Assembly: GCF_900102885.1 (NCBI RefSeq)
Contig: NZ_FNGE01000009.1
Location: forward strand, 62,001-126,000
Direction of reading: 5' to 3'
DNA length: 64,000 nucleotides
Source: Paracoccus chinensis
Lineage (GTDB): Bacteria; Pseudomonadota; Alphaproteobacteria; Rhodobacterales; Rhodobacteraceae
Part shown: in pieces, positions 22,952 through 56,257 of the stretch
How positions within the stretch are numbered: position 1 is the stretch's first letter
Layout: every line of letters begins with the position of its first letter
The notes under the pieces: generated by a model
Told to the model about the DNA's origin: nothing
What the model saw: the letters and a program-made list of their open reading frames with translations, nothing else
Database searches by the model: none
Translations under genes and position numbers: made by a program

Positions 22952-30482
<7,531 letters not shown>

Positions 30483-30529
30483 GGGTCCTTGGCCTCTGCA
30501 GGCAGAGGGTGCCGCTTGGGTCTGGCTAA

Positions 30530-31372
30530 GAGCATCTGACAAAACCTTCTGATCTGGTTGAGGCAGATGAGGGCGCAGCCGAGGATCACGAAAGCCTCGT
30601 GGATGTCGGCACATCGCTCGTAACGGATGGCGAGGCGGCGAAAGCGGTTGAGCCGTGCCAGCGTTCGCTAGACGACCCAGCGGCGTCGGCCCCGCCTCTC
30701 GCTGCTGTCCATGCCTCGCCGGCAATGCGGGGCTTGATGGCACGCTTCCGGCATTCGATCCAGCGGCGGCGGTGGTCTTAGGCTTTGTCAGCATGAAGCT
30801 TGTCGGTCGCTTGCGGGGACGGCTGCGGCCGTGGCGCACGCTTGGCACGGCGTCGAGGGTCGGCGTCAGCATCTGGCTGTCGTGCCGGTTGGCCGGGCTC
30901 AGCCGCACCCCGAAGGTGCCCTGCCGATCGACCACAAGGTGGCGCTTCGTGCCCGGTTTGGTTTGCGATCCGCCGGGTTCGGGCCTGTTATGCCACCCAC
31001 CCTTTTCGTGGCAACGGCGGCGCTGTCAAGGGAGGTCCGGCTCTAGTCCAGGTGCCCGGCCTTCGACAACTGCTCGAGCAGCACGCGATGGAGCTTGGCC
31101 TAAACGCCCACTGCCTGCCAGCCATGCAGCCTGCGCCAGTAGGTCATGCCTGAGCAGCCAAACTCGCCCGGGCCACATCTCCCGGGGAATGCCGGATCGC
31201 AGAACGAAGATGATGCCGGCTAAGGCCAGAGGTCAGCGCATCAAGGTAGGCAACCCTTGGGCTTCGGCCGCTCCCCTGGCAGGACGGGCGCAATCGCCTC
31301 CCACAGGTCATCGGATACAAGGAGCCTGCTCACGGCCTGTCAACGCATGAGCAGCGGTTTTGTCAGGTGCTC
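30530..31372 (-). mobile_element. Decayed IS5-family insertion sequence (IS427-like)
   Basis: The 843-bp element is bounded by 17-bp inverted repeats, GAGCATCTGACAAAACC at 30530-30546 and its complement at 31356-31372, with one mismatch. Between them, read leftward, are recognisable pieces of an IS5-type DDE transposase in different frames. The flanks show no clear target duplication, as expected for an old insertion. It lies 47 bases after recG. Confidence 0.8.
30546..31333 (-). pseudogene. Broken IS5-family transposase
   Basis: Reading leftward from a GTG at 31333, the product starts LVSDDLWEAIAPVLPGERPKPKG, a typical IS5/IS427 opening, then meets an in-frame stop after about 30 codons. 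Later fragments in other frames include WSRTSLDSAAV-like and VDRQGTFGVRLSPANRHDSQML pieces around the catalytic region and a terminal AFVILGCALICLNQIRRF. Several frameshifts are therefore present and no active transposase can be made. Confidence 0.8.
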
Positions 31373-31373
31373 C

Positions 31374-32006
31374 AAGAACCTACATGGCGAGATGCAACCG
31401 GGACTCAGCTAACTGTGCCGGCGAGCAGCAGGCAAAGGCAGCTTTCCGCGTCTTGTGGCCATGCGCTTTCGGCCCGACCCGTCTGGGACAAGGTGAGCTT
31501 GCCCAACAGGCCTCGCGCGAGGTAGTTCCAGCAATCCACTCATGGTTGGGCACCATTGCTTAGCGGGGCAAAGGCAACGCCGCGTGAGGCTGTTCAGACG
31601 GAAACGGACAAGCGCGTCCGTTTCCGTCTGAACAGGACCGATCTGGGGCTTGAGCAGCATTGCGACCAAGGCAGCAGGTGCCAATGCCTTTGTCAGGCCA
31701 CGAGAAGTTGGTCGCCCTCGCCAGGGCTGCATGAGCTCGCCAGTCGCCTGCGAAGGAATGCAGCCTCGTGACAAGCCAAAGGAGAGCGCCGCGTGATCCT
31801 TGCCGCCGTCCGGCTTGGTGAATGCGGGCTGTAAACCGGTCCTTCGGCTGCCCCGAGCCCGGGCATGCACGTGCAGCACCGTCCTTCCTGCCCGAGGAAG
31901 GCCGAGGGCACCTGACAATCTGATCAGAGAGGCACATGCCGAAAGGCGCAGCGGACTGCCTTCCGTGGCCGTGAGGTGAAGGAGAGCAAGCAACAAGCCC
32001 ACTGAT
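31374..32006. other. Gene-free stretch with a long perfect inverted repeat
   Basis: I find no credible coding frame in these 633 bases. Composition is less GC-rich than the flanking core genes. The only clear structure is the inverted repeat at 31590-31635. The stretch lies between the dead IS and the SOS-controlled peptide gene, and may be remains of older insertions. Confidence 0.5.
31590..31635. repeat. Perfect 20-bp inverted repeat
   Basis: The arm CTGTTCAGACGGAAACGGAC (31590-31609) is repeated in exact complement at 31616-31635, with a 6-base spacer aagcgc. There is no T-tract on either side, so it is not a standard terminator. The shape is what two abutting insertion-sequence ends would leave, but no transposase is attached. 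Confidence 0.85.
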
Positions 32007-32021
32007 GTTCACTAAAAGTTC
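32007..32021 (+). promoter_or_regulatory. Predicted LexA (SOS) box before the 34-residue peptide gene
   Basis: GTTC-ACTAAAA-GTTC is a perfect match to the alphaproteobacterial LexA operator GTTC-N7-GTTC, the same pattern found in front of lexA in this window. It ends 55 bases before the peptide start. A TTTACA -35-like hexamer follows directly at 32022. Confidence 0.7.
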
Positions 32022-32076
32022 TTTACAGACTCGCTCCAAAATGAGAACAAAGCGTTAACATCAATGGAGGCTTCCT

Positions 32077-32181
32077 ATGAAACGCATGTTTGATCTGCCT
32101 GATGTTCTTGCCGACATGATCGGGGCAGCAGCCATTTCGGTCGCAATTATCGCCGTGTTGTGGCTACCCGCTCTGGCCTGA
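32077..32181 (+). CDS. 34-residue single-pass membrane peptide, predicted SOS-inducible
   Basis: The peptide begins MKRMFDLPDVLADMIG and ends in one hydrophobic helix (AAAISVAIIAVLWLPALA). TGGAGG lies 7 bases before the ATG, a strong ribosome site. The LexA box at 32007-32021 predicts induction by DNA damage. In size, topology and control it resembles SidA of Caulobacter, a short inner-membrane SOS peptide that blocks division, but the sequences are not obviously related. It converges with lexA across a 537-base gap. Being short, it could be chance, but ribosome site, operator and helix together argue for a gene. Confidence 0.6.
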   Translation: MKRMFDLPDVLADMIGAAAISVAIIAVLWLPALA

Positions 32182-32718
32182 TTGCTCCCGGGGTCGTCCT
32201 TCAGAACACCGCTTTTGATACGGTTCTGTGCCTTTATGAATCGGGTAGGGGAGCAATGCAGGGGCATCAAGGCGCACAGGGAAGCGCACTGCGAACATCT
32301 GAAAAGGTAGAACTTGCCGAACTGGAACAGTGAGTCCTAAAGGTGAGATCTGTTCAATCCATGAAGCGTGGCAGCGCCAAGCAGGGACTGTTCGTTAGAT
32401 GGAGCACTCGGCAGCTTTCCAGGCATGCGAGCGAAAGATGCCGTCACGCCGGTAGGAAAGGCTTGGGCGAAGGACGACTGCGCCCTTTGCCATGATGTGC
32501 ACGTAGGTGCAGCTTGCAGCACGTCAGTCTGCCAGCAGATGCAGGGGTAGTCGGATGAGCACTTGGACAAGGCAAGAGCCCGTGGTTCACGCACTTGGGC
32601 ACTATGCTGTCAGATCGGCATGCGGCTCGCAGCAGTGAGCCGGACCCTTGTTCTTCTGACAAGGATGCTTGCCACCTGTCGCCCCGCTGACGGGTAGTCA
32701 GATCAACGGCAAAGGGCC
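32182..32718. other. Gene-free stretch, 537 bases
   Basis: No reading frame here has a ribosome site or a plausible protein. A 9-bp inverted repeat (attgctccc near 32181 with its complement near 32247) is the only structure seen. It lies between the convergent peptide gene and lexA. Confidence 0.45.
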
Positions 32719-33429
32719 TTAGTAGCTGCGGATCAGCCCGACCAGACGCCCCTGGATGCGAACCTTGTCCTCAGGCAGGACGCGCGTCTCGTAAGCCGAG
32801 TTCGCGGCCTCAAGCGCGATCATGCCGCCCCGGCGGCGGTAGCGCTTCAGCGTCGCTTCGGCCCCCTCGACCAGCGCCACGATGATGTCGCCGTTCTCGG
32901 CCGTGTCTTGTTCGCGGATCACCACCACGTCGCCGTCGTTGATCCCCGCCTCGATCATCGAGTCGCCCTTGACCTCGAGCGCATAGTGATGCTCGCGCCC
33001 CGACAGCATCGAGCCGGGCACCCCGATGTGGTGCGACACTTCGGAGATCGCCTCGATCGGCACGCCCGCAGCGATGCGACCCATCACCGGAAGCTCGACC
33101 GCCGGGCTGTCCACGATCGGCATCGCGCCACGCGGACGCGGTGCGGGCAGGGGACGGTCGTTCGAGATCACCCGAGGCCTGAAGGCCCCTTCCTCGCCCT
33201 CGCCCCGCATCAACGCGTCGGGCAGGCGCAGGATTTCCAGGGCACGCGCGCGATGGGGCAGGCGGCGGATGAAGCCGCGTTCCTCGAGGGCCGTCACCAG
33301 CCGGTGAATTCCCGACTTCGAGCGCAGGTCCAGCGCCATCTTCATCTCGTCGAAGGACGGCGGAACGCCATCTCGGGCCATGCGGGCCTGGATGAATTCC
33401 AGCAACTGGATCTGCTTCTTGGTCAGCAC
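32719..33429 (-). CDS. lexA: SOS repressor LexA
   Basis: This is a 236-residue LexA. The N-terminal winged helix starts [17 protein letters not shown]. The self-cleavage bond is A121-G122. The catalytic dyad is S157 (KGDSMIEAG) and K195 (ATLKRYRR). On DNA damage RecA filaments trigger cleavage and free the SOS genes. Three GTTC half-sites, giving two overlapping operators, lie 31-56 bases upstream, so the gene is autoregulated. Unlike E. coli LexA, the linker (75-105) is long and Pro/Arg-rich, as is usual in alphaproteobacteria. Confidence 0.97.
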
Positions 33430-33459: not shown

Positions 33460-33485
33460 GTTCATTGATTGTTCTAGACACGTTC
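33460..33485 (-). promoter_or_regulatory. Double LexA operator upstream of lexA
   Basis: Three GTTC half-sites spaced by seven bases each (33460-33463, 33471-33474, 33482-33485) make two overlapping GTTC-N7-GTTC boxes. They allow cooperative or graded autorepression of lexA. Confidence 0.85.
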
Positions 33486-49441: not shown

Positions 49442-49518
49442 CGGGGCGTGGCGCAGCCTGGTAGCGCGACGGTTTTGGGTACCGTAGGCCGGAGGTTCGA
49501 ATCCTCTCGCCCCGACCA
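49442..49518 (+). tRNA. tRNA-Pro (anticodon UGG)
   Basis: The 77-base gene folds as a normal cloverleaf. The acceptor stem CGGGGCG pairs with CGCCCCG, the anticodon stem ACGGT/ACCGT has loop TTTGGGT giving anticodon TGG, the T-loop is GTTCGAATC, and CCA is encoded. It is the presumed attachment site of the adjacent integrase; the shared att core should lie in its 3' half. Confidence 0.95.
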
Positions 49519-56158: not shown

Positions 56159-56257
56159 GTGTGATCGACGTTGTACAGCAACCTGTCTTTCCGGTCAGGT
56201 AGACATGCGGTTGAAGGTTCTGGTCTTGTTCTCGTATTGCGCGAGGGAGGATTCGAG

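Follow-up and report, generated by a model that had tools for sequence, protein, structure and literature searches.

In the 64,000-nt stretch of the Paracoccus chinensis genome analyzed here (hereafter, the window), a perfect LexA-type box stands directly ahead of a frame of just 34 codons. The question this locus raises is whether so short a frame is a gene at all and, if so, what a small membrane peptide placed under such a box might do in the SOS response. The elements on which the answer depends are as follows:

28167-30482, + strand: recG (NF008164 RecG, 1083 bits against a cut-off of 785)
30526-31367, + strand: what is left of a transposase gene of the IS5 family (82% identical to the copy annotated in Paracoccus sp. 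MC1862)
32007-32021, + strand: LexA box 1, GTTCACTAAAAGTTC, an exact match to GTTC-N7-GTTC that abuts the -35-like hexamer
32022-32027, + strand: -35-like hexamer TTTACA as read in the window (TT(T/G)AC is the majority form among 170 promoter rows)
32042-32051, + strand: TGAGAACAAA block at -10 distance, a possible extended -10 element overlapping operator 2
32045-32059, - strand: candidate LexA box 2 in reverse orientation, here GAAC-N7-TAAC, matching at 7 of 8 positions
32057, + strand: predicted transcription start, an A after a pyrimidine with a leader of ~20 nt, placed by spacing
32065-32070, + strand: ribosome-binding site TGGAGG, 6 nt before the ATG, read from the sequence
32077-32181, + strand: peptide gene, 34 aa, single-helix membrane peptide (ATG at 32077, TGA at 32179-32181)
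32719-33429, - strand: lexA (TIGR00498, 180.7 bits against a cut-off of 110.95)
33460-33485, + strand: two overlapping GTTC-N7-GTTC boxes in front of lexA

A sequence-only reading of this DNA had described the box, the TTTACA hexamer, the TGGAGG ribosome site and a 34-codon frame ending in a membrane helix, and all of these are found where it placed them. Its statement that lexA carries the same operator type also holds, in the form of the two overlapping boxes. These provide three consecutive GTTC half-sites (33460-33485), suggesting that lexA may be under tight autoregulation. In the window lexA is the convergent downstream neighbor of the peptide gene, and both the operator and the peptide gene are intact despite the IS5 remnant upstream, whose Paracoccus sp. 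MC1862 relative is a plasmid copy. At 31591-31634 the decayed stretch also holds an inverted repeat (TGTTCAGACGGAAACGGAC ... GTCCGTTTCCGTCTGAACA) whose 19-bp arms match perfectly around a loop of 6 nt.

A GTTC-N7-GTTC operator at the promoter, the mark of membership in the LexA (SOS) regulon, is thus present at the peptide gene. A lone box of this kind is weak evidence: the window contains four matches, two of them those of lexA, against 1.17 expected (four or more were seen in 1 of 100 shuffles), and the whole genome contains 104 against 60 for a reversed control pattern. A further single match at 56217-56231 of the window is at chance level. The box becomes significant because it is conserved upstream of orthologues. 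Among 54 orthologous loci, found via protein similarity, 51 have a perfect box upstream; the exceptions are L025 and L027, with one mismatch each, and L069, with no good box. Broken down by subset, a perfect GTTC-N7-GTTC is present in 28 of the 30 Paracoccus loci (window included), the other two having one mismatch, and in 23 of 24 further loci from the wider family. Joint conservation of frame and box in relatives, which the sequence-only reading had proposed as one check on its idea, is therefore what these loci display.

We then traced the peptide itself. Matches to the 34-aa sequence at E ≤ 0.1 were obtained in 31 of 36 relatives of the same genus; two Paracoccus genomes (G009, G011), in which the peptide end has diverged, were recovered via the promoter pattern, and no clear peptide match was seen in G017 (71% complete), G026 and G032. 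A Paracoccus profile yielded the wider-family set, comprising 24 loci after removal of the own locus (L040) and of five false ones in which the match lay inside a frame of at least 320 aa (L042, L051, L061, L064, L065, all dropped before any counts); L141, which repeats L023, was likewise dropped. Profile A2, built from the Paracoccus and wider-family loci, matched at E 0.01 in 265 of 295 sampled Rhodobacteraceae genomes, corresponding to 264 of 294 genera, with about 245 of these genomes at 1e-4 or better. Most carry one match, seven of the 265 carry two, and the remaining 30 of the 295 have no peptide match at that threshold. The order-level genome sample consisted of Rhodobacteraceae only. 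In a class-wide profile search of 289 genomes, four family members scored E 1e-9 to 8e-16, and nothing significant was found in the 285 genomes outside the family (best E 0.003). Sub-significant matches occurred in 28 of these 285, 26 of them in frames of at least 80 aa; one of the two short ones, L216 (33 aa), has no box. A phage or plasmid origin was rejected, one 40-aa member having no match at E 1 in phage and plasmid collections. Judged by this distribution, the peptide gene is a core gene of Rhodobacteraceae, and the earlier description of it as lineage-specific falls.

The family members evolve as proteins. Across 26 non-overlapping close pairs, dN/dS is 0.155, indicating purifying selection, with 131, 55 and 327 differences at codon positions 1, 2 and 3, respectively. 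On these comparisons, the frame at 32077-32181 is a real, conserved protein-coding gene. Members are 31-50 aa long and consist of a short N-tail followed by one hydrophobic helix, with almost no tail after it. All of 149 members have an Asp before the helix; 144 have a Gly three residues later, and 146 have the Pro of the closing Leu-x-Leu-Pro. The best 17-residue mean hydropathy is at least 1.78 in every one of the 149. No Lys, Arg, Asp or Glu follows the conserved Asp in 82% of members, and before it there are on average 2.1 Lys/Arg against 1.0 Asp/Glu. The positive-inside rule ties such a charge balance to membrane topology, so the Lys/Arg excess weakly suggests an N-in, C-out orientation. 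A structure model of the peptide alone consists of one helix at residues 7-33 (mean pLDDT 88.9, pTM 0.48).

The genomic context is equally constant. In 52 of 54 distinct profile loci recG lies within 1.5 kb upstream, at ~0.5 kb in L008 and ~1.1 kb in L019; L002 is one of the two exceptions, and the other is the window, whose recG is 1.5 kb off behind the IS5 remnant. In all 116 of the promoter loci listed that have at least 400 nt of upstream sequence, recG is just upstream and reads in the same direction, 9-545 nt away. The sequence-only reading had the peptide placed in a decayed stretch; it is rather a core gene normally found behind recG, with an IS5 remnant here between recG and the operator. 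lexA also adjoins the peptide gene in L002 and L008. In a crude test, which took the longest frame downstream in each of 121 loci, this frame ran against the peptide gene in 96, and no partner gene conserved on that side was seen. From this arrangement, the peptide gene looks monocistronic.

Upstream of the frame, nearly all loci share the order GTTC-N7-GTTC, TTTACA and then GAGAACAAA at 21 nt from the box. GAGAACA lies 21 nt from the box in 47 of the 51 loci measured, three further loci being without the block as written. The exceptions are L022, in which the box is nearer the block (10 nt), and L055 (22 nt); in L009 and L011 a first copy lies at 13 nt and a second GAGAACAAA at 21 nt. We treat TTTACA as a putative -35 element only, because a consensus scan of 31950-32350 for sigma-70 promoters and terminators found none. 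Leader length downstream of the promoter block ranges between 14 and 86 nt, the peptide itself being preserved.

A second recurrent signal became apparent in a set of 170 promoter rows, from which L022 and others without the exact pattern were left out. The TG of the TGAGAACAAA block is present in 166 of 169 distinct rows, and an AAC occurs at one fixed offset after GAAC in 169 of 170 rows (168 of 169 distinct), a position outside the search patterns used to collect them; offsets 1-10 and 12-14 give 0-3. The base preceding the AAC is C in 147, T in 9, A in 9 and G in 4. Since GAAC-N7-GAAC is the LexA box read in reverse, this amounts to a second site, mostly a 7-of-8 box, which faces box 1 and spans the -10/start region. 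The reverse half-pair GAAC-N7-(N)AAC thus looks like a second LexA operator, and it is a full match in L003, L006, L010, L013 and L027, the last being a locus whose box 1 is imperfect by one base. The second half-site has C, T or A in place of G in 164 of the 168 AAC-bearing rows, so box 2 may partly be a start-site signal, and the usual C may owe its retention to its place directly ahead of the start. In 126 of 169 rows, though not in the window, an extra GTTC precedes box 1 at a distance of 10 nt.

Of 25 Paracoccus genomes, 23 contain the extended pattern GTTC-N7-GTTC-N23-GAACAA at a single site, always ahead of the peptide frame; the two genomes without it are G003, with one mismatch in box 1, and G017, which is 71% complete. 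Among the 295 Rhodobacteraceae genomes it is found in 216, and the reversed control is found in 2. It is not confined to this one promoter: for at least three of the 216 (G153, G222, G259) the sole match has a different layout, and a second layout is shared by seven of the genomes listed. Of 285 genomes outside the family, 4 have the pattern, in no case with the TTTAC...TGAGAACAA arrangement. From the loci analyzed up to this point we built a stricter DNA pattern; scanned against named genomes, it retrieved at least 119 loci, a route that uses no protein sequence. As far as recognized, the 80 titles among the matches listed are Rhodobacteraceae/Rhodobacterales or unplaced alphaproteobacterial MAGs. 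Of the 119 promoter loci listed, 114 have the strict peptide motif downstream, and L148 and L158 are cut by the locus end. The frame picker favors the peptide motif and a decoy control was therefore added: none of 2130 decoys has the strict motif, and the picker's own looser rule is passed by 100 of the 119 loci against 30 of the 2130 decoys. Taken with the conserved operator pattern, the designation of a LexA-controlled membrane peptide is close to certain.

The presence of LexA was also compared between 20 peptide-bearing Rhodobacteraceae genomes, from the upper part of the list, and 20 peptide-lacking ones, those listed of 30. A match to the LexA DNA-binding domain is missing in none of the former and in seven of the latter (Fisher P 0.008, or 0.036 without three genomes less than 90% complete, with shared ancestry uncorrected), the domain being present in the other 13 of the 20 peptide-lacking genomes checked. 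This co-absence is suggestive of LexA control. The seven genomes without both are G068, G089, G093, G119, G182, G227 and G255, four of them at least 93% complete.

Known domain families offer little to place the peptide. Scans of 30 and 37 members (sets A1 and A2) gave a best E of 0.02 in Pfam and of 0.0043, to a transporter subunit, in NCBIfam, and no toxin model matched in either collection. Hits were weak and scattered throughout, PHROGs included, the best being the unnamed phrog_34852 at E 0.0015 for 2 of 37 members. The family is thus uncovered by Pfam, NCBIfam or a named PHROG, and the unannotated one-helix membrane peptide proposed by the sequence-only reading is a real gene under a LexA-type operator that no curated protein family covers. 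A full-text search of a licence-limited collection found no description of the gene. The in silico LexA sites named for Dinoroseobacter shibae in the available part of PMC6473078 do not include it, nor does recG appear in that text. The gene is probably novel.

What, then, might it do? SidA of Caulobacter crescentus is described as an inner-membrane protein of 29 aa, SOS-induced and interacting with FtsW (PMC4211646), and the filamentation of a Caulobacter lexA deletion is attributed to sidA (PMC12700426). The Rhodobacteraceae peptide resembles this description in its size of ~30 aa, in its presumed SOS induction and in being a predicted inner-membrane protein of an alphaproteobacterium; like a SidA-type inhibitor, it is a small single-helix membrane protein under a LexA-type operator. 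Unlike SidA as described, it is widespread in its family, linked to recG and preceded by two operator-like sites. The class-wide profile, with its best outside match at E 0.003, is a search that may miss a 29-aa SidA relative. DidA, also of C. crescentus, is presented in the same paper as a 71-aa one-helix division inhibitor that is induced by DNA damage independently of SOS, driven by DriD, interacts with FtsN and has a short periplasmic domain (PMC4211646). Our peptide shares with it the small size and single helix and differs in having almost no tail after the helix. SulA, which would fill the same role in Escherichia coli, acts on FtsZ according to that text (PMC4211646). No Pfam SulA match over the cut-off was found in 37 genomes (23 of them Paracoccus), with the E. 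coli control positive; matches below the cut-off (E 8.6e-4) turned up in two Paracoccus genomes, in frames 275-299 aa long, and the Pfam scans of the A1 and A2 members did not bring up the SulA domain. Two proteins described as SOS-induced division inhibitors, YneA (Bacillus) and SosA (Staphylococcus), are longer and have extracellular domains, and no Pfam match links the peptide to either.

Division inhibition is the best functional reading of these data, and we give a probability of roughly 0.5 to the explanation that the locus encodes a core SOS membrane peptide that delays division in the manner of SidA. Under this proposal, LexA would sit on the two operators, one at the -35 region and the other over the -10/start region, keeping the gene silent until RecA-driven cleavage of LexA released it. 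The product would be an inner-membrane protein of 31-50 aa with a short cytoplasmic N-tail, one helix and almost no periplasmic part. Its Asp-x-x-Gly-x-x-Ala/Ser face and Leu-His/Trp-Leu-Pro helix end could form a surface docking on a membrane partner in the septal machinery (of the FtsW/FtsI/FtsN type), and division would be delayed as by SidA. A widespread, syntenic gene with mostly one match per genome is as expected of a checkpoint, and a recG-linked SOS membrane peptide with no SulA nearby is arguably what a division checkpoint should look like. Slightly more tentatively, we suggest a missed SOS division checkpoint of hundreds of genera, overlooked because it has only ~40 codons: one copy behind recG, two face-to-face LexA operators 23 bp apart and new helix-only peptides that would stop septal wall synthesis, with an origin independent of SidA and SulA.

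Other explanations account for parts of the evidence. That the product is a small membrane regulator acting elsewhere than in division, on a transporter or a membrane protease, in DNA uptake or the release of gene transfer agents, or on RecG and the replication machinery at the membrane, is unlikely. The recG linkage in almost every locus favors it, as do LexA sites placed in silico at dprA, recA and the gene transfer agent cluster of Dinoroseobacter (PMC6473078); the recG linkage may only be inherited position, and the peptide gene has its own promoter and, by the crude longest-frame test, no conserved downstream partner. Hydrophobic SOS peptides can also be depolarizing toxins, which speaks against the division reading. 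TisB of E. coli is described as depolarizing the inner membrane and DinQ as a toxic single-transmembrane peptide under antisense RNA control, both SOS-induced. TisB, too, is under antisense RNA control. A peptide of this kind would be SOS-induced, insert into the inner membrane, lower the proton motive force and cause slowed growth or persistence, and the double operator would silence a harmful product. The size of the Rhodobacteraceae peptide, its hydrophobic helix and its LexA-type promoter with two operator-like sites suit this idea, which we consider more doubtful still. The peptide is unlike these toxins in its lack of family-model matches (nothing better than E 0.02 in Pfam, no toxin model) and in its phylogenetic pattern, for type I toxins tend to be patchy in distribution and this gene is inherited beside recG over 264 genera. 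Furthermore, the absence of charge after the conserved Asp in 82% of members leaves no charged pore face.

An SOS-induced small RNA with an incidental frame is far less probable than either. A terminator-like hairpin within 200 nt downstream in 82 of 145 loci (12% in shuffles) could be taken to speak for it; by the same rule the window has none. So could a 3' stretch common to some Paracoccus loci, seen by eye. Against it stand the dN/dS of 0.155 with its third-position bias, the leader that varies while the peptide is kept, and Rfam, which matched neither the peptide region of the window nor L005, L015, L021 or L028, the only hit across these sequences being a tRNA at 49442-49515 of the window. 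The common stretch (CTGCCCCGCGTTGC ... GCGCAAC) lies 0-100 nt past the stop and before the terminator in loci such as L026, L028 and L030; it recurs in many Paracoccus species, is absent by eye from the window and is possibly a structured 3' RNA. The last possibility is that box and frame came together in decayed DNA by accident, and single boxes are indeed common in this genome; the conserved frame and promoter pattern, the dN/dS and the decoy control refute it, leaving it a negligible probability.

On the preferred reading, a peptide that delays division, the gene could show how these bacteria link DNA damage to division; this applies at least to Paracoccus, for which no SulA match exceeded the cut-off. 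More generally, it is a candidate core SOS-response gene, with no description found, in a large and ecologically important alphaproteobacterial family, and if it is a toxin instead, it is an unusually well-conserved one. The rigid promoter with its two facing operator-like sites is also a clean system for studying how LexA works on direct-repeat operators.

Two further sequence features were observed. Inverted repeats of at least 5 bp surround the ribosome site in 19 of 34 Paracoccus loci and in 20 of 114 outside the genus (shuffles 12% in both cases), and repeats of at least 6 bp in 12 of the 34 Paracoccus loci against 2% in shuffles. They lie just before the ATG with compensating variants (GGCAAC/GTTGCC, GAGCAAC/GTTGCTC, ATCAGC/GCTGAT) in loci including L005, L009, L011, L016, L024-L026, L028, L030 and L132. 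A hairpin that silences read-through from recG was considered and is unsupported by the folds, the repeat in the window being only 4 bp. Finally, a second recurrent layout, GTTC-N7-GTTC ... ATG(A/C)G(A/G)(T/A/C)CA(A/T)AAC/A...(A/G)GAACAA, is present, among the matches listed, in G116, G151, G153, G164, G231, G257 and G259, and is perhaps another SOS promoter with facing operators in other Rhodobacteraceae.
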